Assembly: GCA_015061945.1 (NCBI GenBank)
Contig: SUVP01000003.1
Coordinates: forward strand, 186,001-250,000
Length of the DNA: 64,000 bases
Origin: Opitutales bacterium
GTDB taxonomy: Bacteria; Verrucomicrobiota; Verrucomicrobiia; Opitutales; Intestinicryptomonadaceae
Reading direction: 5' to 3'
Below, piece after piece: positions 18,253 to 40,313 of the stretch. A program made the position numbers and the translations under genes. The notes under the pieces are model-generated. The model was not told where the DNA came from and did not search any database. It saw nothing but the letters and a program-made list of their open reading frames with translations. The number at the start of each line of letters is the position of its first letter. The stretch's first letter is position 1.

Positions 18253-18257
18253 TAGTG

Positions 18258-18286: not shown

Positions 18287-18292
18287 TAGATT

Positions 18293-23700: not shown

Positions 23701-24354
23701 ATGTTGAAAACAATTTTCAGGATTTCTTTGCTTGTTGCGTTGATTGTTTCGGTCGAAGTATTTTTCGGCTGGAGCGAGTTGTTTGTACTTGTCGAGCAGA
23801 CGGCAAAGAATAACGAAAATAGTCTCGCTATATTTTTCTTGCTGATGTCGGTAGGTTGTGCGTTTGCGTTTCCGCTTTCATTTTGTTATTTGTTTGCAGG
23901 GGTTGCGTTCGGATTTCTCAAAGGGTGGGGCGTGTGTTTTGCGGTACTCGCCGTGAGTTCGACAATCGGATATTTTCTCGGTCGATTTTTTGTACCTAAA
24001 AATGTGGTTGAAAAATTGTGTTTGCGTTTCGGTATAGATTCAAATCCGAGAGGGCGTGCGATGTTCAATGCAAACTTTCTTGTACGCGTAATTCCCGGGA
24101 TTCCGTATTGGCTTCAAAATGTGATTTTGGGCGGATTGCGTTCCGACTTTCTCTTGTATATTGTCGTAAATTTATTTGCTCAAGGTGCGATTGCAGGGGC
24201 TATGAATTACTTTGCATCATCTCTTGCAGAAGAGGGTCTTGCGAAGTATTTGGCGTTTGCGATTCTCGTTTTGGTGCTCTCAATTTTTCATATTGCGGTA
24301 AACATTGTTTACAAAAAATCCACTAAACAGACGAAAGATAAAGTTTGTTGTTGA
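23701..24354 (+). CDS. TVP38/TMEM64 family (VTT-domain) membrane protein
   Basis: 217 residues from the ATG at 23701. Five to six hydrophobic segments. The VTT/SNARE-associated core is seen as CAFAFPLSFCYLFAGVAFG followed by SSTIGYFLGRFFV and RVIPGIPYWLQN (about 120-142), as in DedA-like lipid scramblase or flippase-type proteins. First gene of a four-gene plus-strand unit with an acyltransferase, a FabZ-like dehydratase and a flavoreductase, so a role in handling the lipid product of the cluster is possible. It could also be a general envelope gene that happens to be next door. Confidence 0.85.
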   Translation: MLKTIFRISLLVALIVSVEVFFGWSELFVLVEQTAKNNENSLAIFFLLMSVGCAFAFPLSFCYLFAGVAFGFLKGWGVCFAVLAVSSTIGYFLGRFFVPKNVVEKLCLRFGIDSNPRGRAMFNANFLVRVIPGIPYWLQNVILGGLRSDFLLYIVVNLFAQGAIAGAMNYFASSLAEEGLAKYLAFAILVLVLSIFHIAVNIVYKKSTKQTKDKVCC

Positions 24355-24386
24355 ACGAAAATTTTGTTCTGTTTGACTTATTTCCG

Positions 24387-25169
24387 ATGAACCCGATTCA
24401 AAAGTTTTGGTGGTATTTTAGAGGATTTATTTTATTTGTCCTCTATGTATTGCTGAACATATTACTCGTGGCTTTCACATTGCCATTTTTATTTTGTTCA
24501 CAAAATACTCGTGCAAAGATAATTTCAAAGGCACTCCGATTAGTACTTTGGATTGTGTTCGACAAAGGAATATCGTCGTTTGGTGGATATAATATTTCTG
24601 TGAAAGGTAAGGAAAACATTTGCGAGAATGGTGCAATTTACGTTTGCAATCACGCATCGCTTTTTGATCCGTTTTGGGCGATGACTTACATTCCCAATGC
24701 TGGAGTCCTGATAAAATCGAAGTACGCAAAAATTATGGCAATTTGGTATTTGGTAAAAGTTTTCGATTTTATAGCGATAGATTCGCTTTCGCCATCGGCA
24801 CTCGCACCTGTTGTCGAACAAGCACAACGTTCGCTTGCAAATGGTCGAAATTTATTGATATTTCCAGAGGGTACTCGCACTATGACTGGGCGACTTGGCG
24901 ATTTCAAAAGTCTCGCTTTTAAGTTGTCGAAAAAGACAGGAGCACCGATTGTTCCAATGACAATTTGTAGCGATGTCCCATTTTTTGCAAAGTTCCAAAA
25001 GACAATAATTCCAGAGGAATTTGCAAATCTGACAGTGGAATTTTTGCCAGCACTCAAGCCAAATGATTTTCGTGATGATAAGGCAATGCTCGCATCGACA
25101 CATCGAATAATATCGAAAAATTTGCGTGGCAGATTGTTTGAAAAAACTTGCAACAATCTCGAAAAATAA
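24387..25169 (+). CDS. Lysophospholipid acyltransferase, PlsC family
   Basis: 260 residues from the ATG at 24387 (family-like start MNPIQKFWWYFRG; an upstream TTG at 24345 is less likely). N-terminal membrane helix, then the acyltransferase motif I VCNHASLFDPFW (H-X4-D) and motif III FPEGTRTMTGRLGDFKSLAFKL, and motif IV GAPIVPMTI. It would transfer an acyl chain from ACP or CoA to a glycerol-type or glycolipid acceptor at the inner membrane. APE-type clusters regularly contain such an enzyme. Thirteen-odd bases separate it from the FabZ-like gene. Confidence 0.9.
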   Translation: MNPIQKFWWYFRGFILFVLYVLLNILLVAFTLPFLFCSQNTRAKIISKALRLVLWIVFDKGISSFGGYNISVKGKENICENGAIYVCNHASLFDPFWAMTYIPNAGVLIKSKYAKIMAIWYLVKVFDFIAIDSLSPSALAPVVEQAQRSLANGRNLLIFPEGTRTMTGRLGDFKSLAFKLSKKTGAPIVPMTICSDVPFFAKFQKTIIPEEFANLTVEFLPALKPNDFRDDKAMLASTHRIISKNLRGRLFEKTCNNLEK

Positions 25170-25184
25170 AATATTACTTTTGTG

Positions 25185-25631
25185 ATGATACTTGGAAAAT
25201 CAGACATAGAAAAATATTTACCGCATCGTTCACCCTTTGTTTTTGTCGACGAAGTGCAGTCGCATATTGTGGGAAAATCTATCCAAGCAACGCTTTTTCT
25301 CGACGAAAATTTGCCCTTTTTTAAAGGACATTTTCCGAACAATCCCATTATGCCAGGCGTATTGATTACAGAGTCGCTTGCACAAACTTGCGGGTTGTTG
25401 CTCGCTTTAGACGAGAAAGAATCGGGCGTTGAACGCGATTGTGCAAAGGTGTTTTATTTGGCGACAAACAATATGAAGTTTTCAAAAGTCGCAAGGGCAG
25501 GCGATACGCTCATCTTGAAATGTTCGCTTTCAAAAAAGTTTGGTACGCTTGCACAATTTTCTGTTGAGGCGTCAGTTGGTCGCGATAAAGTTGCATCAGG
25601 TGTGATAGTTTTAGCCGAGCCAAATTTATAA
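25185..25631 (+). CDS. FabZ/FabA-like 3-hydroxyacyl-ACP dehydratase
   Basis: 148 residues from ATG 25185. Hot-dog fold. LPHRSPFVFVDEV is the FabZ N-terminal signature and FKGHFPNNPIMPGVLITESLAQ carries the catalytic His and Glu. It would dehydrate 3-hydroxyacyl-ACP to the trans-2-enoyl-ACP; with no enoyl reductase in the cluster this would leave double bonds, that is, a polyene. Because house-keeping fabZ usually sits with lpx genes, this copy is more likely dedicated to the cluster. One base separates its stop from the next ATG. Confidence 0.93.
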   Translation: MILGKSDIEKYLPHRSPFVFVDEVQSHIVGKSIQATLFLDENLPFFKGHFPNNPIMPGVLITESLAQTCGLLLALDEKESGVERDCAKVFYLATNNMKFSKVARAGDTLILKCSLSKKFGTLAQFSVEASVGRDKVASGVIVLAEPNL

Positions 25632-25632
25632 A

Positions 25633-26691
25633 ATGAAAGTATTGTTAGTTCGAGGCAATCCAAGAAAAACAGGCGTTTGCGAGCGTCTTGCCGATATTTT
25701 TGTCGACGGACTAATCGCTGGTGGAGCCGATGTTTTTGACTTTGATACAACAACAGCAAAAATTTCTCATTGCAAGGGATGTTTAACTTGCAATTTTGGC
25801 GAAGTCGGGCGATGCGTGATAGGCGACGATATGCTTGAAGCTTGCGATTATCTTTCATCTGCCGATGCTCTTATTTGTGTTTCGCCAGTTTATTTTTATG
25901 CGATGAGTTCGCAAATGAAAATGTTTTTTGATAGATGTTTTCCGTTTGTGCGTGGATATAGTTATAATGCAGATTTGCAACGCAATGAAAATAGTTTGTC
26001 GTTTAAGAAAATTGGTAAAAAGTTTTTGACAATTTCAGTTGCGTCGGGGCGTTTAAGTTCATCGTTTAGTTCGATGTCGCATACTTATAAAACAATCGCA
26101 CAAGCTCTTGGGTTTGATTATTGTGCTGATATTAAACGTGGAGAATCTGTCTATTTTTCGGGCTTGGGAGACGATTCTGTTAGGGTCGGGAAAGTGCTTT
26201 CAGCTTTCAGGAAAGCTGGCGAAACCTTTGCAAAAACTGGAAATATTGAGAGCGAGCTTGTCGACCAAATGGAAATGGAACTTGCCCCTAATGATGAGAT
26301 TTTTTCAAAACGTGCAAAAGTTTTTTGGGAGCTTTCAAAACATCAAAAAGTTGGCGAGCGTGAAACTGCCGACTTAAAAGCTGAATTACGCAAACTCGCA
26401 AAAAAGATGCAAAACAGCATTGCGAAAAATTATCCAGAAAAAACTTTTTCTATCAAATATTCATTTATCGATATGCGAGAATCATTTTTTGTCTCTATCG
26501 ATTCTCAAAAATATAAAATCGAAAAAAATGTGGAACAATCTTCTGCAGACGTAGAAATACGCCTAACTTCGACATTGTTTTACGATATAATCGCAAACCT
26601 CCGCGACATATCATCGGCAATAAAATCTAAGAAATTAACGTATGTTGGCGATTCCTATTTGTTCTCGCTTTTTGCCGATTCAATAAAATAA
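25633..26691 (+). CDS. NADPH-dependent FMN reductase (iron-sulfur flavoprotein-like) fused to an SCP2-like lipid-binding domain
   Basis: 352 residues. N-terminal flavodoxin fold: LLVRGNPRKTGVCERLADIF (FMN phosphate loop), CKGCLTCNFGEVGRCVIGDDM (cysteine-rich motif typical of multimeric flavodoxin/ISF proteins), SPVYFYAMSSQMKMFFDR. From about 255 to the end is a second domain, with KTFSIKYSFIDMRESFFVSID, ADVEIRLTSTLFYDII and the closing KKLTYVGDSYLFSLFAD, that fits the SCP2 sterol-carrier pattern. SCP2 domains hold hydrophobic chains, so the reductase may act on a lipid or polyene substrate. The fusion is not a standard member of APE clusters as far as I know. Ends two bases before the convergent fabG. 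Confidence 0.83.
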   Translation: MKVLLVRGNPRKTGVCERLADIFVDGLIAGGADVFDFDTTTAKISHCKGCLTCNFGEVGRCVIGDDMLEACDYLSSADALICVSPVYFYAMSSQMKMFFDRCFPFVRGYSYNADLQRNENSLSFKKIGKKFLTISVASGRLSSSFSSMSHTYKTIAQALGFDYCADIKRGESVYFSGLGDDSVRVGKVLSAFRKAGETFAKTGNIESELVDQMEMELAPNDEIFSKRAKVFWELSKHQKVGERETADLKAELRKLAKKMQNSIAKNYPEKTFSIKYSFIDMRESFFVSIDSQKYKIEKNVEQSSADVEIRLTSTLFYDIIANLRDISSAIKSKKLTYVGDSYLFSLFADSIK

Positions 26692-26693
26692 AT

Positions 26694-27428
26694 CTACACG
26701 CACGCAGTCAAACCGCCGTCGACGATTATTGTTTGCCCTGTGATGTATGAGGAGTCGTCGGAAGCGAGAAATACTGCAACATTTGCCACTTCTTCTGGTT
26801 TGCCAAAGCGTTTCAGTGTAATTTTTTCAACTTGGGCTCTCGCAATTTGTCGAGGGATTTTTGCGGTCATATCTGTTTCGATAAACCCTGGGCAAATGGT
26901 ATTCACACGAATAGATTTTGTGCCGAGTTCAGACGCTAACGAGCGAGCAAACGCACACAATGCACCTTTGCTTGCAGAGTAATTTGTTTGTCCTGCAACG
27001 CCAACGAGTCCAGAAACTGATGATATAAAAATTATCGAGCCACTGCGTTGACCGTACATTTTTTTTGATGCAAGCTTTGTCCAACGAAACGCTCCGAGCA
27101 AATTAGCATCGAGTACAGAAGTGAAGTCGGCTTCGGGCATCATCGGCAAATATCCGTCTTTTGTTATACCTGCGTTATTGACGAGAATATCGATTTTTCC
27201 GGCGTCAGCAAAGATTGTATCGAATGTTTTTTCGATAGCCGATGTGTCGGTTTGGTCGCACTTAAATGCGATTGCGTTTGTCTCTTGTTCGAGTTGTTTT
27301 ACGGCATCGGATTCACTTCTGTAAGTAAAATAAACTTTTGCACCAAGTTCAGAAAATTTTTTTACTATCGACGCTCCAATCCCACGCGAACCGCCTGTTA
27401 TAATTGCAACTTTGCCTTTGAGTTTCAT
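26694..27428 (-). CDS. 3-oxoacyl-ACP reductase, FabG family SDR
   Basis: 244 residues. Short-chain dehydrogenase with NADP site [17 protein letters not shown], and the catalytic Ser-Tyr-Lys (ISSVSG ... [13 protein letters not shown]). [14 protein letters not shown] and [14 protein letters not shown] are typical of FabG. It would reduce 3-oxoacyl-ACP in the elongation cycle. Last gene of the minus-strand ACP-GcvT-thioesterase-FabG unit; its ATG overlaps the thioesterase stop (ATGA). Position with the KS, ACP and DH genes suggests a cluster-specific ketoreductase (ApeQ-like). Confidence 0.93.
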
Positions 27429-27847
27429 TTTAATTGAAGATAACGCTTTCTAATTTCATCGGGCGGATTGCGGACAAGCTCGCCAGTTTGCGAGTTTATC
27501 AAAACGCAAATACACTCGCAAAAAGCGTGTGTTGTTTTTGTTTGTTCGTTGATAAGTTCGTGCGTAAATTCAAGGCGACCAGTGTATGTTTCATCAATTT
27601 TATGACGTGTTATTACCACGAGTTTTTCATCATTACGCACTGCTTGTTCAAATGTATAATTGCATTGGCGAACAGCGACAGCCACGCCCAATTTCATCAT
27701 ATCAGAAAACGGCATAATGTCGTTCATCACTTGAAATCTACCACGTTCAAACCAGTCGAGATAAACGCTGTTGTGGACAACTCCCATCATGTCGAAGTCT
27801 CGAAAAGTTGGGATTATTTCAAGCTTTCTGATAATTCTTCGAGGCAT
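27425..27847 (-). CDS. Acyl-ACP/acyl-CoA thioesterase, 4HBT hot-dog family
   Basis: 140 residues from the ATG at 27847. YbgC/FadM-like hot-dog: [25 protein letters not shown] holds the catalytic Asp and the usual GVVHNxxYxxW motif. Such a thioesterase (ApeK-like) is a standard part of aryl polyene clusters, releasing or editing the chain. The start is placed next to the upstream gene's stop (27849); a longer frame to 27871 would overlap it. Confidence 0.9.
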
Positions 27848-27848
27848 T

Positions 27849-28931
27849 TTAATCTTCCATCGGAGTGCCAAGACTCAATGCGATAAACGGTGGACGCGAA
27901 ACAGTTTGTATGTCTTCGTCTCCATTTGGTGTGCGTGCGTACGCAAAGCCAGAGGCGACATATTCAGCATCGAAAATGGCAGTTGCCAAGAATGTATTAG
28001 GGATGTGGCTTTTTGCCGACGAAACAATTTCACCGACGCAGACATCGCCGTCATAAATTTTTTCGCCGACAGAAATAGGTGCAGAGCTTTTCATTCCCAC
28101 CAATTTTCTTTTCAAGCCATTTTGACGTTTTTCAAAAATTTTCTCGCTCCCGATAAAAGATTCTTTTTCAAAATCGATTGTCCATTGCAAGCCGAGTTCG
28201 AGAGGGCAACCGACGTTTTTGCCTTCGGCGTGAATGTTAAAAAAGTTGCCTTCAAGACGTGCAGTTTGGTGTGTATCAAATCCACAAAGCATTCCATTAT
28301 GGGCGTTGAGCGATTCAATAATTTTGTCAGCGAGCTTTTCTGCAATCGCATTCGGGGCGAGGAATTGATAACCGTACTCTCCCGTTTTTCCACTCCGTAA
28401 AAGATATACGTCTTCGCCTTCAAAATCGTATTTTTCTACTGATAAGAATGGCAAATTCAAAATGTCGGAACCAAAAATATCTTTTGCAATTTTCCACGCA
28501 AAAACTCCGTCGACCGATAGCAGAACGTGTGATGTCGTGATGTCGGTCGCCCCCGAATTTTCCGAGCATAGCGGGGCAGATGCACCTTCCGAGACTTCTT
28601 CTGCAATGACAATTAACTTATCATCGATATCCGCAACAAAAACGTCTGCAACAACATTGCCATTGTCGTCGGCAAGAATAGTATTTGCAATTTTGCCGTA
28701 TCGTAATTTGAGAATATCTGCCGAGAGAATCGAATCGAGAAAATCGAGACCGTCATTTTCATCGTAGATGAATTTTTTAGTAAACGAGAAATCGCAGAAA
28801 ACGGCGTTCGAACGCAAAGTAGATATTTCTTTTTGCGAGTCTCCAAAATTCTTCACACATTGCACACCCGAAATCTCGCCGAAAACAGCGTTCAACGATT
28901 CCCATTTATTTTTTAAAATTAGTTCGTGCAT
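27849..28931 (-). CDS. GcvT-like aminomethyltransferase/YgfZ-fold protein
   Basis: 360 residues. The T-protein fold is seen from KFIYDENDGLDFLDSIL through GKIANTILADDNGNVVADVFV (region of the folate-contacting Asp), LLRSGKTGEYGYQFLAP (canonical SRTGYTGExGfE) and LGLQWTIDFEKESFIGSEKI, with the C-terminal barrel KRKLVGMKSSAPISVGEKIYDGD. It is translated with an ACP gene (13-base overlap) and a thioesterase, not with other glycine cleavage genes, so a normal glycine-cleavage role is unlikely. A folate-dependent methyl or one-carbon step on the ACP-bound chain, or a structural role, is possible; this is inference. Confidence 0.8.
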   Translation of the reverse strand: MHELILKNKWESLNAVFGEISGVQCVKNFGDSQKEISTLRSNAVFCDFSFTKKFIYDENDGLDFLDSILSADILKLRYGKIANTILADDNGNVVADVFVADIDDKLIVIAEEVSEGASAPLCSENSGATDITTSHVLLSVDGVFAWKIAKDIFGSDILNLPFLSVEKYDFEGEDVYLLRSGKTGEYGYQFLAPNAIAEKLADKIIESLNAHNGMLCGFDTHQTARLEGNFFNIHAEGKNVGCPLELGLQWTIDFEKESFIGSEKIFEKRQNGLKRKLVGMKSSAPISVGEKIYDGDVCVGEIVSSAKSHIPNTFLATAIFDAEYVASGFAYARTPNGDEDIQTVSRPPFIALSLGTPMED

Positions 28932-29209
28932 TGTTTATCCTGTTCTTGAATTATGAAGTCTGCAAGAGTGTTGAGCGAACGCAAAATATGCGTTCCGTCT
29001 TCTGGCATTTTAATCGAAAAATTGTTTTCAACGCAAAGTACGATTTCAAGAATGTCGAGCGAATCAAGCCCGAGCCCCGAGCCGATAAGCGAGACATCAT
29101 CAGAGAGGTCGTCGGGCGAATATGGGAGGTCGAGATTTTCCGCAAGCTTTTCTTTCAGTGCTTGGCAGACTTCTTTGCGTCTTTGCAATTTTGTTTTGTC
29201 GATTGGCAT
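28919..29209 (-). CDS. Acyl carrier protein (cluster ACP 1)
   Basis: 96 residues. The 4'-phosphopantetheine site is GLGLDSLDILEIVLCVE, with Ser in the DSL triad. Acidic helix II follows as usual. First gene of the minus-strand unit, overlapping the GcvT-like gene by 13 bases. Together with the ACP at 33339 this gives the two-ACP composition seen in APE/flexirubin loci. The N-terminus (KTKLQRRKEVCQALKEKLAENL) is a helix longer than in FabC/AcpP. Confidence 0.93.
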   Translation of the reverse strand: MPIDKTKLQRRKEVCQALKEKLAENLDLPYSPDDLSDDVSLIGSGLGLDSLDILEIVLCVENNFSIKMPEDGTHILRSLNTLADFIIQEQDKQCTN

Positions 29210-29266
29210 ATTGTTTATTTATATTTGTAAAAAATTCAAAAATACGCACTATTAACGTATTGTTTT

Positions 29267-29282
29267 ATATCTGATTAGATAT
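29267..29282. promoter_or_regulatory. Inverted repeat in the divergent ACP/glycosyltransferase promoter region
   Basis: ATATCT-GATT-AGATAT, six-bp perfect arms, in the 111-base gap between the divergent minus and plus operons of the polyene cluster. It could be an operator; no regulator gene is visible in the cluster. Confidence 0.35.
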
Positions 29283-29320
29283 TGAAGCAAACGCAACTCC
29301 ATTTCAAGACAAATGACTAA

Positions 29321-30031
29321 ATGAAAATCTGCACGATAATTCCAACATACAATCATCGCATTAGGCTTGGCGAAATCATAAATGCTTTGCCAAATGACGT
29401 GTGTGCTATTGTCGTCGACGACGGCTCTAATCCACCGATTGAAATTGATTCTATGCGTGCAAAACTTTTTAGGTTTGAAAAAAATCGTGGCAAGGCGGAA
29501 GCATTGAAATTTGCTTTTTCTAAAGCCTTGGAAATGGGGTTTACTCACGCAATTACGCTCGATGCAGATGGACAGCATAAGCCGTCGCTTGTTCAGGATT
29601 TTATTGAGTGTGCCGAAAAAAATCCTGATGCACTGATTTTAGGTGTACGCGATTTTAATAATCCATCGATTCCACCAGCCCGAAGATTTATGAATAAATT
29701 TTCAAACTTTTGGTTTTGGGCAGAAACAGGGAAGAATGCTGGCGATACGCAGTGTGGTTTTAGGTGCTATCCGCTCGCACAAATTTTGTCGCTGAATATG
29801 GATTTTGGAGGTTTTGTTTTTGAGACAGAATTACTCGTAAAAGCATCGTGGGCAGAAATAGAATTTAAAGAAATAAAAATACCTACAATTTACGATTCCG
29901 AAAGCGTTGCAGGCTCGCATTATCGCCCAATTGCCGACACATTTAAGTTCACAATGATGAATACAAAATTATTTTTTGCCTCGATTTTCTTATCAAGAAA
30001 TCGTCTAAAAAATATGTCATTAAAAAAATGA
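29321..30031 (+). CDS. Glycosyltransferase family 2
   Basis: 236 residues, GT-A fold. CTIIPTYNHRIRLGEIINAL, the nucleotide-contacting VVDDGSN, and the metal-binding ITLDADGQHKPS (DxD-type DAD). CGFRCYPLAQI follows, as in dolichol-phosphate-mannose-synthase-like GT2 enzymes. No transmembrane tail. A GT2 of this kind is a usual member of APE/flexirubin-type clusters (ApeJ-like), where it may attach a sugar or anchor the polyene. Its stop overlaps the exporter start as ATGA. First gene of an eight-gene plus-strand operon. Confidence 0.9.
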   Translation: MKICTIIPTYNHRIRLGEIINALPNDVCAIVVDDGSNPPIEIDSMRAKLFRFEKNRGKAEALKFAFSKALEMGFTHAITLDADGQHKPSLVQDFIECAEKNPDALILGVRDFNNPSIPPARRFMNKFSNFWFWAETGKNAGDTQCGFRCYPLAQILSLNMDFGGFVFETELLVKASWAEIEFKEIKIPTIYDSESVAGSHYRPIADTFKFTMMNTKLFFASIFLSRNRLKNMSLKK

Positions 30032-32424
30032 AATTTGTAAAAAACGCAGTAGCTTTTTTCGTTAAGCAGAGAATTCTTTTTTGCGGAATTTTTTTGCTGT
30101 CTGCTTTTTTGACTTTCTTTGCGATGTCGCATGCGAACTTTTCGGAAAATGTTTACGATATTTTGCCAGTGTCAGACGATACTGTTCATGCACATTTAAA
30201 AGCTACAAAATTTTTCGGACAATCGAAAACGCTTTACTTTAATATTTCTGGAGAGAATGCATCGGCAGTGTCAGATATTCTTTCAGAAAAACTTTCTGCA
30301 ATGCCTGAAATAAAAGAGGTTTCGGGGACAATGGCAACGCAAGACTTTAGAAAAGTAGTACAGGCATTGTTGAAATTTACACCCGAACTTTTTACTAATG
30401 AAGACGAAATTTTACTCCGTGAAAAAATCAAAAAAGATGTACTCGAAAAACGCTTGAACGATTTTAAAAAGAAGCTTTCGGGCGTAGGTGGATTTGGTGT
30501 TAGCGATGTACTCATCGCAGATCCAGTTGGCGTATTGGACATCTTTTATCAGAAGCTAAAAAAATCATCCGACTTAGATGTTGCGTCGTTTTCAGACGGA
30601 AAGATAATATCAAAAGACGGCAAAAATTTTTTGATTTTAGCAGAGGGCAATTTTGATTCTTCCGATTCGCAAAAAAGTGCAGAACTAATTTCTAAAATCG
30701 AAAAGATTTTAAAGAAACTAAAAAACGATTTTCCGTCAGAAAAAATAGCGTACGCTGGCGGGTATAGAATTGCAACTGACAATGCGAAAATAGCAAGCAG
30801 AGATTGTTCAATGTGCTTTGTGCTTACGATTATTTTAATGTCGGCAATTTGTTTTTTTGCATTTCGTTCTCGCATTTTTATGTTGTTCGCGGTTGCTCCG
30901 TCGCTGTTGGGAAGTGCGATTGCGTTTGCGTTTATGTCTATTTTTTACGGGCGTGTAGCATCTATTTCTGTGGCATTTGCGTCGATTGCAGTCGGGGTGT
31001 CAATAGACTATGCAATTCATATTTTGTATAAATTAGATTCGCTTGGGAAACTCGATTTATCAAAAGTTGCTGATGTTGCAAGTACGCTTGCTCGCCCAAT
31101 AGCAATGACTGCTGGCACGACCGCAATGGCATTTGTTATAATATTTTTTTGCGGTAGCGAAGGGTTTTCTCAACTTGGAATTTTTGGTGTAGTTGGAGTG
31201 ATAACTTCGGCGTTATTAAGCGTGTTTGTTATGCCAGCATACGCAGTTGGGTTGGGAAAAATATCGTCAAAACGAAGATTCTTTGATTTGCTTGCGAAAG
31301 GAATTTTTCCGCTTTTCAAAAATTACAAATTATCGATAGTTGTGATTGTAATTTTATCTCTATCGACGTTGCCTTTTTTGTTTAATCTAAAAATAAATGG
31401 CGATTTTTCGAGCCTTAGTGCACTCACTACAAACGCTCGTGCAGACGATGTTTTAATACGCAATGTGTGGCGTGATGCTGTATCGAAAACATATATTCTT
31501 ATCGATACAAAAAATGCAGAACTCACAAAAAAAGAATCTAAAAAAATTGAAAAGTGGCTCGCCGAAAATGGCGTAAAATATTTTCCTATTTCTAATTTAG
31601 TGGTCGATTCAAATACTAAAAATGAAAATATAAAAAGGTGGCACGATTTTTGGAATGACTCAACGCTTGCGGAGTTAAAGAAAAACTTTTTGCTTGCATC
31701 AAAAAGTGTCGGAATGAGTGCAAAAGCATTTGAGAAATCCATATCAAAATATCCGACTCTCGCAGATGAAAAATTTGATGTTTTAGCAGATGGTAACTTA
31801 TCAAAAATTTTTAAGGGCAAACTTTCAGCCGATGGAGTTATCGCTCTTTCAGTAGTTTTGCCAGCGTCATTTGATAAGGTAGAGTTTTCAAAAAAATTAA
31901 AAGAATTTTCGCCTTGCAGCGATTACATCGAATCCTCTTTCTTGGGCGAGCATATCGCAAAAATTACATTTGATTGGTTGATAAAATTTGCGATGTTGGC
32001 ATTTGTCTTTGCGTTTGGATATATCTATTTTATATCGCATAAAATTAAATTTGTTTTTGCGGTGTTGTTGCCAGTTGTTTTTGGGTTGGCGTGGTGCTTC
32101 GGAATTTTGGGTATGTTGGGAATTCAGATAAATATTGTCAGTGCAATTTTTGTGATTTTTGCAGTTTGTGTCGCACAAGACTACTCTGTGTTTTTACTCC
32201 ATTCATCTACTTCGGATGAAAATAAAATTTCTACATTGGCGTCAGTTTTACTCTCTGCAATAACTACAATTTTTGCATTTGGTACACTCGCAATCGCAAA
32301 GCATCCGATGTTGAATTCGCTCGGTATTTCTGCGGGTATTTCGATATTTTCGATTCTATGTGCGTGCATTTTGTTTTCATCAATATCGTCAAAATGGTTA
32401 GGAAAAAAGCAAGATGAAAGATAG
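30028..32424 (+). CDS. MMPL/RND-superfamily lipid exporter
   Basis: 798 residues. Two halves, each with one N-terminal membrane helix, a large periplasmic loop and about five clustered helices. Conserved stretches: FYGRVASISVAFASIAVGVSIDYAIH in half one and INIVSAIFVIFAVCVAQDYSVF in half two; the Asp in GVSIDYAIH and AQDYSVF are at the proton-relay positions of MMPL proteins. In APE clusters the equivalent exporter (ApeM) moves the polyene lipid to the outer membrane with help from the LolA-like protein, also present here. Overlaps the next gene by 11 bases. Confidence 0.92.
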   Translation: MKFVKNAVAFFVKQRILFCGIFLLSAFLTFFAMSHANFSENVYDILPVSDDTVHAHLKATKFFGQSKTLYFNISGENASAVSDILSEKLSAMPEIKEVSGTMATQDFRKVVQALLKFTPELFTNEDEILLREKIKKDVLEKRLNDFKKKLSGVGGFGVSDVLIADPVGVLDIFYQKLKKSSDLDVASFSDGKIISKDGKNFLILAEGNFDSSDSQKSAELISKIEKILKKLKNDFPSEKIAYAGGYRIATDNAKIASRDCSMCFVLTIILMSAICFFAFRSRIFMLFAVAPSLLGSAIAFAFMSIFYGRVASISVAFASIAVGVSIDYAIHILYKLDSLGKLDLSKVADVASTLARPIAMTAGTTAMAFVIIFFCGSEGFSQLGIFGVVGVITSALLSVFVMPAYAVGLGKISSKRRFFDLLAKGIFPLFKNYKLSIVVIVILSLSTLPFLFNLKINGDFSSLSALTTNARADDVLIRNVWRDAVSKTYILIDTKNAELTKKESKKIEKWLAENGVKYFPISNLVVDSNTKNENIKRWHDFWNDSTLAELKKNFLLASKSVGMSAKAFEKSISKYPTLADEKFDVLADGNLSKIFKGKLSADGVIALSVVLPASFDKVEFSKKLKEFSPCSDYIESSFLGEHIAKITFDWLIKFAMLAFVFAFGYIYFISHKIKFVFAVLLPVVFGLAWCFGILGMLGIQINIVSAIFVIFAVCVAQDYSVFLLHSSTSDENKISTLASVLLSAITTIFAFGTLAIAKHPMLNSLGISAGISIFSILCACILFSSISSKWLGKKQDER

Positions 32425-33277
32425 TAAAATTCAGTGGACTGGCAAAACGTACGGCGGATATTTTGGCAATTGGTGTTTCTTGAAACTTTTGAAATTTGGG
32501 ATGTATCCGGCATATTTGTTGCTTGTTTTTGTGGCGTCGTATTTTCAGATTTTTCGACCAACTGCGTGCAAAGGTGGTGTGATATTTTTAGAAAAAGTGT
32601 TGGGGCGGAAAGTCGGCAGATTCTCATTTACACTTTATAAACTTTTATTTTCGTTTGGCGTATGTTTGCTCGACAGAACAGCGTATTTAATAGGTAGCGA
32701 CAAAATAAAAATTATTGACGACGCTGAAATATCGATAAAAGAAATTCTCAGTTCGGGTAAAGGAGTGATTGTGCTAACTGCACATATCGGAGGCTGGGCG
32801 ATATCTGCAACTCAACTTGAAAAATATGGTCGCAAACTTTTCATAGCAGGTGTGGATACTGAAGATTCACGTTTGCGAGAGCTTGCAAAGTCGGTGCAAA
32901 AACGTGGTAAGTCGGCAATCAATACCGATGGTGCAATGGGAAATATTCAAGCGTATTCGATTTTGCGTGCGGGTGGAATTGTCGCAATGCACGCTGATAG
33001 ATATGCTGGTGGACGCTTTGTAGATGTCGAGTTTTTTGGCAAAAATGTAAAAGCTCCGTTGTCGCCATACGCACTTGCAAAAGCGTCTGGCGTGCCGATT
33101 GTACAAACGATATGTGTTCGTGAAAAACTTTTTACTTATAGGATGAAAGCGTTGTCGATTATCGATGCAGAAAAAAAATCTCCAGAAGAGTGTGCCGAAA
33201 TATTTATGAAAAATATGGAATCTGCGTTGCGAGAGCATCCATACCAATGGTTTAATTTTTACGATTTCTGGGCGTAA
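32414..33277 (+). CDS. LpxL/HtrB-like acyltransferase, catalytic Glu replaced
   Basis: 287 residues. Resembles lauroyl/myristoyl acyltransferases and the predicted acyltransferases of APE loci: KGVIVLTAHIGGWAISATQL, then GGIVAMHADRYAGGRFVDVEFFGK (LpxL: ...D...G....FFG) and SPYALAKASGVPIV. The usual H-X4-E/D (GHYGNWE in LpxL) reads H-I-G-G-W-A, so the acidic partner of the His is Ala. Either another residue serves or the enzyme is altered. The N-terminal segment has one or two hydrophobic helices for membrane association. Co-transcribed with the exporter. Confidence 0.85.
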   Translation: MKDSKIQWTGKTYGGYFGNWCFLKLLKFGMYPAYLLLVFVASYFQIFRPTACKGGVIFLEKVLGRKVGRFSFTLYKLLFSFGVCLLDRTAYLIGSDKIKIIDDAEISIKEILSSGKGVIVLTAHIGGWAISATQLEKYGRKLFIAGVDTEDSRLRELAKSVQKRGKSAINTDGAMGNIQAYSILRAGGIVAMHADRYAGGRFVDVEFFGKNVKAPLSPYALAKASGVPIVQTICVREKLFTYRMKALSIIDAEKKSPEECAEIFMKNMESALREHPYQWFNFYDFWA

Positions 33278-33338
33278 ATAGGCTTGCGAGGTAAGCCGTA
33301 AAATGTAAAGATTACTCTAAACAAAAATTTTTCAAAAT

Positions 33339-33602
33339 ATGGATAAAAAAACTCTTATTGACGATATTAAAAATAAACTCGTTGTGGCACTCAATTTGCA
33401 AGGCGTTTCCGCTGATGATATCGACGAAAATTCCGAACTTTTCAGCGATGATGGGCTCGGGCTTGATTCAGTTGATGCACTCGAGTTGGTCGTTATGGTC
33501 GAACGTGAGTATGGTGTTGTTGTCGATGAAAACGATGATAGAAAAACAACATTTGCAAGCGTATCGTCATTGGCAGATTACATCATTTCTAAAAAGAGTT
33601 AA
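33339..33602 (+). CDS. Acyl carrier protein (cluster ACP 2)
   Basis: 87 residues. GLGLDSVDALELVVMVE carries the phosphopantetheine Ser in a DSV triad, and ENSELFSDDGLGLD is the usual acidic lead. Stop and next start overlap as TAATG with the ketosynthase gene, so ACP and KS are made together. A small hairpin (GGCTT/AAGCC at 33280-33296) sits in the 61-base gap upstream. Confidence 0.95.
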   Translation: MDKKTLIDDIKNKLVVALNLQGVSADDIDENSELFSDDGLGLDSVDALELVVMVEREYGVVVDENDDRKTTFASVSSLADYIISKKS

Positions 33603-35728
33603 TGGCGTGCAGTCCAGCAGTTGTTGCGGTCGGGCTAAATTGTTCGGCTGGTTCAAATGCCGAGGAATCTTTTCGTTCGGCATTTTTAGGCAATGACGCA
33701 TTGCAAAAACTTTCACTTTTTAAAAGCCCGAGACACAGCGAAAGATTTGTCGCACAAGCCGATTTGAAAAACTCAAAACGCCTTTCGAGATGTACACAGA
33801 TGTTGTATTTGGCTCTCGATGAGGCATTCGAAAAAATCGATTTAAAACAAATTTCGGCGGATAGAATTTCAGTTTGGTTGGGAACAAGTATTGGCGGAAT
33901 TTTCGAAACCGAAAATATGCTGATAGAATCGCGTCAAACTGGAGAGAAAAATTTTTCAGCACTTTCAACGTACGAATGTTCGACCTTGGCAGAGATTGTT
34001 TCAAAACGCATAAAAGCTAAAGGCGAATGTACCGTTTTTTCAACAGCATGTTCAAGTTCATCGCTCGCAATTGCCGATGCGTGCAATGCGATTGTACAAG
34101 GTGATTGCGATGTCGCAGTGGTTTGTGGGGCAGATGCACTTTCGCGTATAACGGTAAATGGATTTGGTTCGCTTTTGCTTTTGTCGGATAAAAAATGTTC
34201 GCCTTTTGATAAAAATCGAAACGGAATAAATTTGGGCGAAGCTGGCGGAGTTATGGTTATTTGTAGCGATGCGATTGTGCGTAAGTTGAGTTTAAAACCT
34301 CTCGCATATTTGTCGGGCTGGGCGTGTTCTTGCGACGCATACCACGCAACTGCTCCGCATCCGACAGGCGATGGTGCGTTTGATGCGTTTAAAAAATCTT
34401 TGGAAAAATCGGGAATGAATGCTGGTTCAATTACCCATTACATCGCACACGGAACGGCAACGCAAGGTAACGATACTTCTGAAGCGTCGGCAATGAAAAA
34501 CTTTTTTGGCGAAGATTGTTTGCCAACATTTTCATCGATAAAGAGAATTTTTGGACACACTCTCGGCGCGAGTGGAATTGTAAATGCGATTCTTTCAGTT
34601 AAGGCAATTGTCTCTGGGAAACTCCCTAAAAATAGCGGTTTTGAAACGATTGACGAAAATATAGGAATACCTCCGTTGACGGAATCAAAGACGCTTGATG
34701 TGGAAAATATTTTGTCGGCATCATTAGGTTTCGGGGGAAATAACGGAGTGTCGCTTTTTTCAAAGTATCCGAAAAATATTAAGGATTTTAATAAAAAACG
34801 CTTATTTGTTTATGGTGTGTCGTTGCTCGGGAATGGTGGAATTTTCCCAGATGCAGAACTTCTAAAAGAAATATCGCCACTAAAAAAACGTAAGTGGGCA
34901 CACTTGCAAAAAATGGGTTTGCAAACGGCAAAAGAAGCAATGCAAGATATTGTGCCAAATGTGCAAGGCGATAAAATCGCAGTGTGTTGGGGTACTGGGC
35001 TTGGTATGACTTCGCAAACAGCATCGTTTATCGAAAATGTAATCGATAAAAACGAAGCTGAACCGATGCCAACTGCATTCACAAATTCTGTCCACAACGC
35101 AGTTTCATCATTAATTGCTGTGCAGAGTGGGTACAAAGGACTCAACAGTGCGACAACTGCAAAAGAGATTTCTTTTGAATCGGCATTATTGCAGGCGATG
35201 CGAGAAATTTATTCAGGCGATGCACTCGCATCGATAGTCGGTTCTGCTGATGAATATTCTCATTACGCATCTGATTTTCTCGCATCGAGAAGTGCTAAAT
35301 ATTCTCGTGCTGATTCATCGAAAGTATCTGATTTTTCTGTCGCATATTTTATCGGTGATGAGCAGTGTTGCGATAGAACACCACTTGCAGAAATATTGAC
35401 AGTTGATATTGCACGACGGGCATACAATGTTGAATTAGAAACTAATCGCATTGTGCGTTTGTTGAAAGCCAACGGACTTTCGCTTGAAAGTATTTCGTAT
35501 TGGTCGATGCTCGATTGTGTAAATAATTTTCAAGAAAAATGGATGTCGGCTTTGTCCGAAAAATTGGGCGTTTGCGAGTTTGCGAAGCCATTAGGAAAGT
35601 ATGGTGCAAATTACTCTGTTTCGGGGGCGTCGATATTTGAATCACTTTCTGAAAAAGGAAAAACTTGCGTTCACTATTCACTGTCATCAACAAATATGTC
35701 GGCGATAACAATATTTAAAGTGTTATGA
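33602..35728 (+). CDS. Ketosynthase fused to a degenerate ketosynthase-like half
   Basis: 708 residues. Residues 1-395 are a complete FabF-type KS with Cys150 in FSTACSSSS, His283 in IAHGTATQGND and His319 in RIFGHTLGASG. Residues about 400-708 are a second thiolase-like half, with FTNSVHNAVSSLIAVQSGY and the preceding GTGLGMTS, matching the ketoacyl-synt_2 (PF13723) type found as separate proteins in APE clusters. Its nucleophile position lies in GLNSATTAKEISFE, without Cys, so it is probably a non-catalytic or length-setting partner. Fusion of the two on one chain is seen directly; its role is inference. Linked by TAATG to ACP 2 and by ATGA to the LolA-like gene. Confidence 0.88.
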   Translation: MACSPAVVAVGLNCSAGSNAEESFRSAFLGNDALQKLSLFKSPRHSERFVAQADLKNSKRLSRCTQMLYLALDEAFEKIDLKQISADRISVWLGTSIGGIFETENMLIESRQTGEKNFSALSTYECSTLAEIVSKRIKAKGECTVFSTACSSSSLAIADACNAIVQGDCDVAVVCGADALSRITVNGFGSLLLLSDKKCSPFDKNRNGINLGEAGGVMVICSDAIVRKLSLKPLAYLSGWACSCDAYHATAPHPTGDGAFDAFKKSLEKSGMNAGSITHYIAHGTATQGNDTSEASAMKNFFGEDCLPTFSSIKRIFGHTLGASGIVNAILSVKAIVSGKLPKNSGFETIDENIGIPPLTESKTLDVENILSASLGFGGNNGVSLFSKYPKNIKDFNKKRLFVYGVSLLGNGGIFPDAELLKEISPLKKRKWAHLQKMGLQTAKEAMQDIVPNVQGDKIAVCWGTGLGMTSQTASFIENVIDKNEAEPMPTAFTNSVHNAVSSLIAVQSGYKGLNSATTAKEISFESALLQAMREIYSGDALASIVGSADEYSHYASDFLASRSAKYSRADSSKVSDFSVAYFIGDEQCCDRTPLAEILTVDIARRAYNVELETNRIVRLLKANGLSLESISYWSMLDCVNNFQEKWMSALSEKLGVCEFAKPLGKYGANYSVSGASIFESLSEKGKTCVHYSLSSTNMSAITIFKVL

Positions 35729-36306
35729 AAAAGTTTTATTTAAGCTTATATTTTGTATTTGTATTTGTTGCAAATTCTTTCGGTTTGACGGTTGCGATGA
35801 AGTTTGAAACGTCGAAATACATAGCGATTATGGAATCGGCGATAAAAGGCGAGGCGTGTTTTTTTTCTGATGAAAACGGAAATGTTCGTTGGCAAACAAT
35901 CTCGCCATACGAATCTGTTATGCTTTTAAATAGCAAGGGAGTTTTTCAATTTGAAAAGCAAAAAGGGAACTGGCGAAAGCTCGATTCAAAATTTGGTGGA
36001 ACAGTAAAACGCATAGTTGATGAAATTCGCAAAATTATAGTTGGCGATTTTGGAGATTCTTATGAAGTAAAAAAAATTGCTGATTCCGTAGAGCTGATTC
36101 CAAAAAATTCTTCAGCAAAAAATTTTATTTCTAAAATAAAAATCACACTCAAGCAAGGTACTCAAATCCCAACTATTATTGAGTTTGTGGAGGTTAGTGG
36201 TGATAGAACTGTTATGAAAGTTGTGGAAATTTCGCAAGATGCAAAACTTGATGCATCGATTTTCGACGATACAAAAATTGGAGATTTTATTTACCCCAAA
36301 AAATGA
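35725..36306 (+). CDS. LolA-like periplasmic lipid carrier
   Basis: 193 residues. Signal peptide 1-20 (ends NSFGLTVA). The body reads as an alternating beta protein with DENGNVRWQTISPYESVMLLN and YEVKKIADSVELIPKN, like the LolA relatives of APE clusters (ApeL-like) that are thought to ferry the lipid through the periplasm. Starts inside the KS stop (ATGA) and ends inside the next gene's start (ATGA). Confidence 0.8.
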   Translation: MKKFYLSLYFVFVFVANSFGLTVAMKFETSKYIAIMESAIKGEACFFSDENGNVRWQTISPYESVMLLNSKGVFQFEKQKGNWRKLDSKFGGTVKRIVDEIRKIIVGDFGDSYEVKKIADSVELIPKNSSAKNFISKIKITLKQGTQIPTIIEFVEVSGDRTVMKVVEISQDAKLDASIFDDTKIGDFIYPKK

Positions 36307-36815
36307 AAAAAATCGTAGCAGGTATATTTTTGTTTTTTTCGGCAGTAGGTCTATTTGCTGGAAACAATTTGCTTTTTTCGTTTGCTGGTCAATCGTACAT
36401 TCAACGTGGCGTGTTGACTTTTGATGATAGAGAATTTGCAATCACAGTTTATGTGGTTTCAACTGCAGATAAAAAAAAGATGATAATGGAATCGCAAGCT
36501 GGGCGTCTTGCACATATTGAGCTCGATTCACTTGGCGATGTTATCGTTTGCGAGGGCGGGAAGTTATTTCCAAAAAGTTTTGTTGAACGCTTTGTATTGC
36601 CGAATTTTAGGGCGATTATGGGTTTTACAAAGTTTTTTAACCAGCCGTTAATGTATTTAAAAAATGGTAAGGTTTGCGAGATTCATTACGATGATGTTGC
36701 AATCAATTTTTGCGACAATTTAAACACATCGCCGAATAATCTCGCATGCGTAGAAATAGTTTCGCCATCATACAAAGTTGATTTAAATTTTGTTTCTCGA
36801 ATTTCAAAAAGGTAG
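36303..36815 (+). CDS. Secreted LolB/DUF3261-like protein of the polyene cluster
   Basis: 170 residues, signal peptide 1-20 (ends GLFAGNN). It looks like the small outer-membrane-side partner (ApeN/DUF3261-like) of APE loci: FAGQSYIQRGVLTFDDREFAI, a beta-rich middle, and KNGKVCEIHYDDVAINF near the C-terminus. No lipobox Cys. Sequence identity to any one family is not obvious to me, so the call rests on position between LolA-like and KS genes, size and secretion signal. Confidence 0.65.
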   Translation: MKKIVAGIFLFFSAVGLFAGNNLLFSFAGQSYIQRGVLTFDDREFAITVYVVSTADKKKMIMESQAGRLAHIELDSLGDVIVCEGGKLFPKSFVERFVLPNFRAIMGFTKFFNQPLMYLKNGKVCEIHYDDVAINFCDNLNTSPNNLACVEIVSPSYKVDLNFVSRISKR

Positions 36816-36823
36816 AAAATTTT

Positions 36824-39220
36824 ATGTCGGCATTTATTACAGGAATCGGAATAATATCGCCAATCGGTTGCGATTGTGCGACAGTGTTGGAATCGTTGCG
36901 TCAGAAACGCGACGGAATCGGGACAGCAACGAAAATCGACGCATCAAAATTCCACTCGCAAATTTGTGGAGAGGTTCACGACTTCGATTGTGCGTCGAAT
37001 ATGTCGCAACCCGAGCTCGAAACTTACACCGACCCATTCATACGTTTTGCAATCAATGCTGGCAGAATGGCTGTTCGAGATGCGGGGCTTGAGGCACTTC
37101 CAAAGTCGACAGCAATTGTCGTAGCATCGTGCAATGCTGGCATGAACTCGGGAGAAAAAGAGTATATCCGCAAGTTTGAAAATAGTGCGGAGCCATTTAA
37201 TCGTTCGATTTCTACGCAATCGGAATTTTATGCTTTGTGCAAAGCTATGGCACACACAATGCAGGTTTCGGGAGAATGTTATATGGTCAATACTGCCTGT
37301 TCTGGCTCGACTGCTGGAATTGGATTAGGGCAGTGGCTCATTGATAGCGGACAATATGATTGTGTTATTGTTGGAGGGAGCGATGCGATGTCGCTTGCAA
37401 ATTATGCTGGCTTTAGTGCGATTAAAGTTGTTTCCGACGAAAAAATTGCTCCGTTTTCGACACCAGTTGGAATGAATATTGGTGAGGGCTCGGCATTTTG
37501 GATTCTTGAAAGCGAGGCTACCGCACGCAAGCGAAATGCTCGTGTTTATGGGAAAGTTATCGCACACGCCACAACAGGTGATGCACACCACCCGACGCAG
37601 CCAGACCCGCGTGGAGATGGAGCATATCGCACGATGCGTAATGTTTTGCAAAATGCTGGCGTGAAGTTGGAATCTATCGGTTGTATCAATGCACATGGTT
37701 CGGGTACGTCGGCGAATGACAAGGCGGAATCAAAAGGTATTGCGAAATTTTTAGCAGGTGCAAAAGTGCCGATAACATCGACGAAATCGTATACTGGACA
37801 CTGTATGGGGGCTACTGGAATCATTGAAGCGACTTGTCAACTTCTCTCGATGAATGATGATTTTATTCCACCGACACTCCGCAACATTGGTGTTCGTGCG
37901 GGTTGTGAAATTGAAGCTGTCAGTGGCGACGGTATCGAGGGAAAGTACGATTGTTTTCTTTCTGCGAATTATGCGTTTGCTGGCAACAATGCTGGGATTA
38001 TCGTCGCTAAAGAAAATTTTGAAGACTACAAAAAAACATCGATTCAGAAAAATCAACGAATAGTTATCACCGGTGCTGGAACTATTACATCACTCGGATT
38101 GGGCTTTGATGAAAATCTTGCACGCTTGGCAAATGGAGATTCTGGAATCAAGAAGATTGAGCGATTTGAATCGGAACGATACGCTGGGCTTGCGGAACTC
38201 CCAAATTTACGAGCTTTTGACAGACGACTCGATTTCAGCGGAATGAATTTGATAAGTACTTATGCGACTATTGCGACGAAATCGGCTCTCGACGATGCGT
38301 CGGTGCGTATGCGTCGAGATATATCTGAGGATGTCGGGATTGCGGTTTCTACTTGCAGAGGTTCGTCCGAGACGGCACATATGGAAGGCGTGTTCGCCAA
38401 CGAAGATAGACGTGGCGACATCGCATGTTTTTCAAACGTAACAGCGAACTCGACTGCTGGATGGGTCTCGAAAGCACTTGAAATAAAAGGTGCAAGTATA
38501 ACACTTGCATCGGGACAAAACTCGGGGCTTCAAACTCTCGCATATGCGTCGGATATTGCAAGGGCGGGCGAAGCAAAAATTTCTGTGGCAGTTTCGGCTG
38601 ATGAACTTTACAAACAAATGATTGACGCATACGAGGAAATTGGCAATTTGCATATTGGTGCGGTTGAGCATGATTTCCATCTGAATTATTCGTCGTATTA
38701 TAAAGGCGTTTTAGGCGAGGGTGCTGTCGCAGTTGTTGTTGAAACTTTGGACAACGCAGCCGCACGAGGTTCGAAAATTCTCGGTGAAATTCTTGCATAT
38801 TCTTCGACTATGGATTGCGTAGATTTTCTTGAACCCAATCTGACAGGTGTTGGTCTTGAACAGGCAGTTCGCAATGCGTTGGAATCGGCAAAACTTTCTC
38901 CAACGGACATCGACCTTGTTGTCTGGAGTCCACGTGGTTGTGCACACGACGCATCGGCAATTTTAGTTCGCGACAAAGTGCTTGGGAAAATCCCAATGTT
39001 GACGACATCGTTGCACACAGGATACATTGAAACTGGTTCAATTTTGCACTCGCTTATGTGTGCGTTGAAATCTTTTGAGAAAGGTTTGCCGTTGTGGAAA
39101 CAACGTACAGGTCTTGCATCGTTTGACGATTTACCATTACCTGAAAATCCTAAAAAAATATTGTGTTTGGCGTCGAGCCATATGGGCAACAATTATGCGA
39201 TGATAGTCGGACGCGAGTAA
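36824..39220 (+). CDS. Ketosynthase-chain length factor (KS-CLF) fusion protein
   Basis: 798 residues. Residues 1-400 are a full KS: Cys159 in VNTACSGSTAG, His291 in INAHGSGTSAND and His326 in YTGHCMGATG. Residues 410-798 form a second thiolase domain starting IVITGAGTITSLG. Its nucleophile Cys is Gln565 in LASGQNSGLQ, and both His are lost (WSPRGCAHD, TGYIETGS). A Gln at that place is the hallmark of KS-beta/chain length factors of type II polyketide synthases. The two subunits, normally separate heterodimer partners, are one chain here. It would build the carbon chain and set its length. Last gene of the plus-strand operon; its stop abuts the convergent KS III gene. Confidence 0.9.
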   Translation: MSAFITGIGIISPIGCDCATVLESLRQKRDGIGTATKIDASKFHSQICGEVHDFDCASNMSQPELETYTDPFIRFAINAGRMAVRDAGLEALPKSTAIVVASCNAGMNSGEKEYIRKFENSAEPFNRSISTQSEFYALCKAMAHTMQVSGECYMVNTACSGSTAGIGLGQWLIDSGQYDCVIVGGSDAMSLANYAGFSAIKVVSDEKIAPFSTPVGMNIGEGSAFWILESEATARKRNARVYGKVIAHATTGDAHHPTQPDPRGDGAYRTMRNVLQNAGVKLESIGCINAHGSGTSANDKAESKGIAKFLAGAKVPITSTKSYTGHCMGATGIIEATCQLLSMNDDFIPPTLRNIGVRAGCEIEAVSGDGIEGKYDCFLSANYAFAGNNAGIIVAKENFEDYKKTSIQKNQRIVITGAGTITSLGLGFDENLARLANGDSGIKKIERFESERYAGLAELPNLRAFDRRLDFSGMNLISTYATIATKSALDDASVRMRRDISEDVGIAVSTCRGSSETAHMEGVFANEDRRGDIACFSNVTANSTAGWVSKALEIKGASITLASGQNSGLQTLAYASDIARAGEAKISVAVSADELYKQMIDAYEEIGNLHIGAVEHDFHLNYSSYYKGVLGEGAVAVVVETLDNAAARGSKILGEILAYSSTMDCVDFLEPNLTGVGLEQAVRNALESAKLSPTDIDLVVWSPRGCAHDASAILVRDKVLGKIPMLTTSLHTGYIETGSILHSLMCALKSFEKGLPLWKQRTGLASFDDLPLPENPKKILCLASSHMGNNYAMIVGRE

Positions 39221-39221
39221 T

Positions 39222-40313
39222 TTAAGCGTCGGCTAAACATTGTGATTGTGGCTTTGCGGGGGAGTCAGAATAATCGTCGCAAGTGAGTGCGAGTTTGAAA
39301 TCATCACTCCAATCAATAATAGATGCTCCCCACGAAAGACCAACGCCAAACGCACATATGACAACACGCATTCCACTTTTTAATCGACCATTTTTAACGG
39401 CATCAGCAAGTGCGATAGGAATACTTGCTCCACCGCAGTTGCCTATATCGTGCATTTTGAAATAGACTTTTGATGCTGGAATTTTCAAGCGTTTTGACGC
39501 ACTCGATACCATCATTTCACCGGCTTGGTGGAAGATAAACAAGTCGATATCGTCGATTGAAAGCGATGCCTTATTAAGCAATTTTGTAATTGTTTCGGGA
39601 ATAGTTTTGTATGCGAATGCAAAAATACTAAATCCGTTTATGTACATATTTGCGTTTGTTCTGATATTGCCGTCATCGTCTTGTTTTTCGATATCATCTT
39701 CACGTGTGTGAGGTTTACGCATTGCAGATGCAGGGCAAATAAGATTGTCGAAACCAGCGCCGTCAGAACCAAACTCAAATTCAATAAATGATTTTTTCTC
39801 TGACGTCTCAAGAAGTACGACAGCCCCAGCGTCGCCGAAAAGTGTGATAGCACTTTTGTCGAGCGGATGAATCAATTTTGATGGAGTATCGGCATTGATG
39901 ACAAGTGCTTTTTTTGCCAAGCCTGTTGTTATCCACGACGACGCCGTTGCGATTGCGTAAGGGAATTGCGAGCATCCCAAGTTGATGTCAAAGCTCGCAC
40001 ACGATTTTTTCAAACGCAGTCTATCTTGCATAATACAAGCGGTTGACGGCATTATGTAATCAGGCGTTTGTGTCGCAAAAATCAAGAGATCAATTTCGTT
40101 GCGTAGTGTCGGTCTTTTTTCAAAAAGAAGTTCGCACGCTTTAAAGGCGAGGTCTGAAGCACAGACGTCTTCGCTCGCAACCCGACGTTGTAGAATCCCA
40201 GAAATACTTTCTATTTTTTTCATAGCGTCGGCTCCGAATCTCAAAGCGAGTTCTTCGCTTGTGAGTTTCTTGTCGCCTGTTGCATACGAAATTGCTGTGA
40301 TTGCTACATTCAT
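39222..40313 (-). CDS. 3-oxoacyl-ACP synthase III (FabH-like)
   Basis: 363 residues. Thiolase fold with FabH triad: Cys114 in NLGCSQFPYAI, His262 in IFHQAGEMM and Asn292 in DIGNCGGASIP. ATQTPDYIMPSTA is the usual FabH/KS III lead. It would start a chain by joining a short acyl-CoA with malonyl-ACP. The loop at about 198-222 (KPHTREDDIEKQDDDGNIR) is longer and more charged than in E. coli FabH. Since the cluster lacks an aromatic starter ligase, this may be the starter enzyme; this is inference. It lies in convergent contact with the KS-CLF gene. Confidence 0.92.
   Translation of the reverse strand: MNVAITAISYATGDKKLTSEELALRFGADAMKKIESISGILQRRVASEDVCASDLAFKACELLFEKRPTLRNEIDLLIFATQTPDYIMPSTACIMQDRLRLKKSCASFDINLGCSQFPYAIATASSWITTGLAKKALVINADTPSKLIHPLDKSAITLFGDAGAVVLLETSEKKSFIEFEFGSDGAGFDNLICPASAMRKPHTREDDIEKQDDDGNIRTNANMYINGFSIFAFAYKTIPETITKLLNKASLSIDDIDLFIFHQAGEMMVSSASKRLKIPASKVYFKMHDIGNCGGASIPIALADAVKNGRLKSGMRVVICAFGVGLSWGASIIDWSDDFKLALTCDDYSDSPAKPQSQCLADA

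Follow-up and report, generated by a model that had tools for sequence, protein, structure and literature searches.

Clusters of the aryl polyene (APE) type are among the most widespread gene clusters in bacteria, and their products have been identified in few groups of organisms. The flexirubin clusters of the Bacteroidota are built on a logic of KS/CLF, ketoreductase (KR), dehydratase (DH), MMPL and Lol functions, which is also that of the cluster described here. APE products are polyenes, and in the pathway of Escherichia coli, ApeH is the predicted loader of 4-hydroxybenzoate (PMC8253772). Anammox bacteria are the only known source of ladderane lipids, and ladderane-type clusters that antiSMASH detected in MAGs of the Verrucomicrobiota had no lipids to match (PMC9902471). 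Radical SAM enzymes occur in the Kuenenia clusters alongside altered paralogues of FabF and proteins resembling desaturases (PMC2649909).

In this article, a gene cluster is described from the window, that is, the whole stretch of 64,000 nucleotides analysed from an Opitutales bacterium, which was placed on contig C2 of a genome of 2.5 Mb in 15 contigs (G000). Judged by its genes, the cluster is a variant of the APE/flexirubin-type polyene lipid clusters, distinct from the APE members, and its tailoring chemistry is uncertain.

Gene content and likeness to described clusters

The cluster occupies positions 23596(23701)-40313 of the window and comprises 17 genes according to ORF calls and Pfam (Table 1), the sixteen-odd genes listed in the original prediction all being present with their domains. 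Rightward runs at 23701-26691 and 29321-39220 enclose a leftward run from 29209 down to 26694, the KAS III gene is also leftward, and adjacent genes mostly share 1-23 bases, an operon-like arrangement. The VTT ORF has a possible earlier start (TTG, 23596), and the gene is counted as a cluster member because it adjoins the PlsC gene in other members (L047/L076 and further ones). The FabZ-type DH is the sole DH of the cluster. Regarding the predicted export set, the MMPL exporter and the LolA-like carrier were recovered, whereas the "LolB-like" label holds by position only: the protein is kept in 10 members, has no match in Pfam or in a PDB profile search of its family, and gives a single-sequence AlphaFold model with a pLDDT of 38.

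A type II CRISPR-like locus lies immediately before the cluster (17886-22994), with six repeats, each about 36 bp long and spaced at 66-67 bp, a Cas1 match (18773-19471) and a Cas9-like protein of 1113 aa containing HNH_4 and RuvC_III (19653-22994). Positions 40356-45909, directly after the KAS III gene, are taken up by a gene for RND efflux (ACR_tran, 1027 aa) together with two more leftward ORFs, and the same three genes flank the cluster in L042 (G298).

Table 1. Genes of the cluster, with window coordinates, strand and supporting matches
Product	Position	Strand	Support
VTT (DedA-type) membrane protein	23701..24354	+	PF09335, 36 bits, above cut-off
PlsC-type acyltransferase AT1, ApeD counterpart	24345..25169	+	PF01553; ApeD match, E 1e-8
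FabZ-type 3-hydroxyacyl-ACP dehydratase	25182..25631	+	PF07977; NF000582 FabZ, 116.2 bits vs cut-off 113
Iron-sulfur-type flavoprotein with C-terminal SCP2-like lipid-binding domain	25633..26691	+	PF03358, Pfam
Ketoreductase (FabG/ApeQ-type SDR)	26694..27428	-	PF13561 and PF00106; ApeQ, 118 bits
4HBT-type thioesterase (TE), ApeK counterpart	27425..27871	-	PF13279; ApeK, E 1e-5
GcvT-like folate-fold protein	27849..28931	-	PF01571, 112 bits
ACP1	28919..29209	-	PF00550; overlaps GcvT-like gene
GT2 glycosyltransferase, counterpart of ApeJ N-terminal half	29321..30031	+	PF00535; ApeJ, 118 bits
MMPL/RND-type lipid exporter, ApeM counterpart	30028..32424	+	PF03176; ApeM, E 2e-11
LpxL-type acyltransferase, counterpart of ApeJ C-terminal half	32414..33277	+	PF03279; ApeJ 280-549, E 4e-5
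ACP2, ApeE counterpart	33339..33602	+	PF00550; ApeE, 45% identity, E 2e-18
KSa, fusion of ApeO-like KS and half-size ApeC-like CLF	33602..35728	+	ApeO, 171 bits; C-half matches ApeC structure 7f28_A (E 1e-4) and PF13723
LolA-like carrier	35725..36306	+	PF03548, 32 bits vs cut-off 23.6
Predicted secreted protein, LolB/ApeN position	36303..36815	+	Named by position only
KSb, KS-CLF fusion	36824..39220	+	
Dedicated KAS III (FabH-like)	39222..40313	-	PF08541 and PF08545

The cluster proteins were compared by blastp with the Ape proteins of E. coli CFT073, only the ape ORFs being used of a CFT073 stretch that includes unrelated neighbours (one of them annotated as an enterotoxin), and 10 cluster genes were matched, to ApeD, ApeI (weakly), ApeK, ApeM, ApeO and ApeQ among others; two genes correspond to parts of ApeJ, and both ACP1 and ACP2 lead to ApeE. 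These matches bear out the APE-like elongation, transfer and export machinery that had been predicted. In common with the ape cluster are homologues of ApeD, E, J, K, M, O and Q, an ApeC-like CLF, a LolA-type carrier and the organization as a single cluster (PMC8253772). The differences are the lack of ApeH, ApeB and ApeG counterparts within the cluster, the fusion of KS with CLF, and the additional KSb, KAS III, GcvT-like and flavoprotein genes. Among the features that define APE clusters, the ApeO-type KS with a half-size ApeC CLF is represented by KSa, though fused and outside the ApeO clade, and the KR, DH, TE, two ACPs, acyltransferases and export set are present, with the LolB/ApeN counterpart assigned by position. 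No AMP-binding gene, and hence no ApeH-type AMP ligase, is found among the 17 genes, and because this feature is missing from the locus, the cluster is not classed as an APE member.

None of the 17 genes encodes a tyrosine ammonia lyase, a FlxY-type ligase or dialkylresorcinol functions as expected of a flexirubin cluster, and the match between the cluster KAS III and the DarB model is poor (49 bits, cut-off 550), although a related gene stretch in another MAG (G308, discussed below) shares the FlxY-like ligase and aromatic ammonia lyase of flexirubin clusters. With the ladderane-associated FASII clusters of Kuenenia and Desulfotalea, the window cluster has in common the presence of several KS paralogues whose active sites are altered (PMC2649909), but it contains neither a ladderane-type (TIGR04072) radical SAM enzyme nor a desaturase, its export and anchoring genes are of the APE type, and B12-radical SAM enzymes and a CrtI-like protein occur in its relatives only.

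The predicted KS and CLF functions are present, but as two fusion proteins instead of separate genes. KSa (708 aa) consists of a KS half, in which the Cys and both His are found, followed by the half-size CLF; its best-scoring Ape protein is ApeO (171 bits against 111 for ApeR), and in the tree KSa takes a long branch of its own, outside the ApeO of E. coli and of G295. KSb (798 aa) joins a KS to a CLF-like half of full size that lacks the active Cys. In an alignment of 15 orthologues, the first half keeps the Cys and both His, while the position of the Cys in the second half is taken by Q, H, P, E, L, S, Y, D or A; L027 and L028 share a clade with KSb in the tree. The cluster KAS III was correctly foreseen as a FabH-like KS III, its Cys-His-Asn set being intact. 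A second KAS III gene of this genome is located at G000:C10, so the cluster copy looks dedicated, and its interpretation as the housekeeping FabH was rejected. Another small KS locus (L098, G000:C2:271-275 kb), past the end of the window, encodes a DH-like protein of 162 aa, a KS of 420 aa and an additional protein of 426 aa.

Distribution among relatives and the question of the starter

KSb occurs in 14 of 19 family genomes (12 of 14 in the same genus, both members of a second genus and none of three in a third), G296, which matched no query, being left out of consideration. The cluster gene neighbourhoods likewise recur in 14 of the 19 genomes, indicating that the gene set is not a chance assembly. 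SCP2 and TE are absent from some members. KSb is also present in two distant MAGs, one of Verrucomicrobia and one of Victivallales, and a search of 289 genomes across the phylum returned only FabF-level matches outside the family. Beside a shortened KSb-ACP1-GcvT-KR series, L027 carries a group II intron maturase (RVT_1, GIIM; 8437-9738). No report of a GcvT-containing cluster of such type was found in the open-access literature searched.

Among the genomes without KSb, G295 (a member of the genus) and G291 have the canonical APE genes instead, including an ApeH-ApeI fusion (L095, L100, L096), and the two cluster types therefore look like alternatives. They belong to the same family of bacteria and share the envelope-lipid logic, but the set of G295, which has counterparts of ApeC-K, M and O-R, lacks GcvT, KAS III and the KSb fusion.

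The original prediction described the cluster as devoid of an ammonia lyase, AMP ligase and methyltransferase, and none of these (the last sought as SAM methyltransferase) is encoded by the 17 genes. Its broader claim that an aromatic starter module is missing stands for the cluster itself and agrees with the lack of aromatic ammonia lyase (PF00221) and UbiC-type chorismate lyase in all 19 family genomes; against it stands an AMP ligase gene (410 aa, G000:C4:10239-11471) overlapping an SDR gene (9517-10242), at least 130 kb from the cluster. Orthologues of this pair are present in 12 of the 14 KSb-containing genomes, the exceptions being G299 (80% complete) and G303, as well as in G293, in which a GcvT gene of the cluster type lies at the end of a contig; the pair is absent from G291, G292 and G295, which have neither KSb nor GcvT (G296 not counted). 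In G298 (L080) and G300 (L081) the KAS III, AMP ligase and SDR genes form an unbroken run; in G289 and G290 about 300 bp separate KAS III from the AMP ligase, and in most other members KAS III resides inside the main cluster, so that KAS III bridges the two loci. As the genomes are relatives of one another, these counts lack independence. Since the AMP ligase-SDR pair tracks the cluster and adjoins KAS III in four relatives, the starter module has probably been split off and is not missing, with this pair as the candidate. Three other AMP-binding loci examined in the genome were set aside, two being Aas/acyl-ACP-synthetase-like and one PaaK-like, with none near KS genes.

The same linkage would also suit a true aryl polyene cluster, in which the distant ligase loads an aromatic acid, obtained by environmental uptake or through an unrecognised route, and an ordinary aryl polyene is made. 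This alternative, which we regard as unlikely though worth serious consideration, gains from the aromatic ammonia lyase and FlxY-like ligase found in G308 on the same stretch of about 50 kb as the KSb-GcvT core, and from the PaaK-type ligase of the window genome, although the latter does not track the cluster, as it is also present in G292, a genome without KSb. It is weakened by the absence of both lyases from the 19 genomes, by the weak likeness of the C4 ligase to ApeH (21%, E 4e-4, blastp), and by the ApeH-like ligase of the canonical-APE sister genomes, which is quite different.

Proposed pathway and nature of the chain

The pathway proposed here draws on gene content, conservation, neighbourhoods and homology as observed, from which the product, starter and reactions are deduced. 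On balance, the locus is likely to be an APE/flexirubin-type type II PKS cluster making an envelope-anchored, probably polyene, acyl lipid. A starter acid would be activated by the AMP ligase and SDR encoded at G000:C4 and condensed with malonyl-ACP by the cluster KAS III. KSb and KSa would then iterate on ACP1 and ACP2 together with the KR and the FabZ-type DH, giving conjugated double bonds. The chain could be transferred to a membrane anchor through the TE, the PlsC- and LpxL-type acyltransferases and the GT2, and the resulting lipid could reach the outer membrane through MMPL, LolA and the LolB-position protein.

The polyene character is deduced solely from the absence of an enoyl reductase (ER) gene from the cluster, and an enoyl reductase of the host FAS could act on the chain. 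The predicted "polyene or unsaturated lipid with a non-aromatic start" is thus favoured in its first part by the absent ER gene, while the sequence does not decide between an aromatic and an aliphatic start. A product other than a polyene, namely a fatty acyl chain modified by hydroxylation, branching or partial unsaturation and destined for lipid A or a glycolipid, appears improbable: the FabZ-type DH, the PlsC- and LpxL-type acyltransferases, the GT2 and priming by KAS III would all serve such a product, but the KS-CLF pairs and the MMPL/LolA export are APE-like, APE products are polyenes (PMC8253772), and the cluster lacks an ER gene.

Putative tailoring genes and radical SAM fusions

The GcvT-like protein and the flavoreductase-SCP2 fusion that had been predicted are both present, the flavoreductase now being refined to the iron-sulfur type. 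The GcvT-like gene is found in all 14 KSb-containing genomes and adjoins the ACP1 gene in each of the 16 loci covering it, and no GcvT-family gene occurs in three genomes without KSb. It is the only GcvT-family gene of the window genome, yet it scores 111.6 bits against the NCBIfam GcvT model, for which the cut-off is 300, placing it outside that family. A role as the glycine cleavage T-protein was rejected on this score and because the genome contains no GcvP. Asp96 of Thermotoga maritima GcvT aligns with an acidic residue in 9 of 10 orthologues, Arg227 aligns with a His in the window protein, and an AlphaFold model from three sequences has a pLDDT of 54. In the flavoprotein, the motif CX2CX2CX(5-9)C of the iron-sulfur-flavoprotein type is invariant in 9 orthologues, among which the SCP2 part is confined to the window, L028, L047 and L060. 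Both proteins most likely tailor the ACP-bound chain by one-carbon or redox chemistry; of the predicted "unusual tailoring", co-occurrence and adjacency lend support to the role, but not to a particular chemistry.

In three genus members (G299, G301 and G294) and in L028, a B12-binding/radical SAM domain of about 440 aa forms the N-terminal part of the KSb protein (L043, L047, L048 and L028), with an identical fusion boundary in all four. Relative to the G299 copy, identity is 71-72% for G301 and G294 and 57% over the compared part for L028. The domain scores 42 bits against TIGR04072 (cut-off 360), and no relative of it was found in the window genome or among the 17 genes. The radical SAM label requires three changes on the KSb tree, and the simplest reading would be a single ancestral fusion followed by losses, including that in the window lineage.

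L028 lies on contig G308:C303 of the Victivallales MAG, in a gene stretch of about 50 kb (L072-L074) that may represent one cluster or two neighbours. It contains a KSb-ACP1-GcvT-TE-KR-AT-DH-flavoprotein series, the aromatic ammonia lyase, the FlxY-like ligase (425 bits, against a cut-off of 520), LolA, MMPL, several KS genes and a CrtI-like protein, together with a separate radical SAM enzyme of 540 bits, above the TIGR04072 cut-off. BtrH-like and ABC transporter genes are also located there. A degenerate ladderane-like pathway that has lost its B12-radical SAM enzymes, although compatible with the shared fusion boundary and with the TIGR04072-level enzyme and CrtI-like protein in one stretch of G308, is very improbable for the window cluster, given the lack of such a domain in its genome, the low TIGR04072 score of the fused domain and the fact that ladderane lipids are so far known from anammox bacteria alone (PMC9902471).

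For the APE/flexirubin-type pathway favoured here, a more specific role of the GcvT-like protein, namely folate-dependent one-carbon addition to or removal from the ACP1-bound chain, ancestrally coupled to the KS-CLF-fused B12-radical SAM domain, is proposed as a speculative and rather doubtful extension. If true, it would imply an oxygen-independent decoration or cyclisation of polyene lipids and bacterial envelope lipids of a new class. At the sequence level, polyene and ladderane-like lipid pathways are linked by the fusions of B12-radical SAM to KS-CLF in close relatives and by the G308 radical SAM enzyme of ladderane type. Furthermore, a single genus whose members carry either the canonical or the rebuilt set offers a natural comparison for the effect on lipids of the extra genes, namely those for the GcvT-like protein, the flavoprotein and KAS III.
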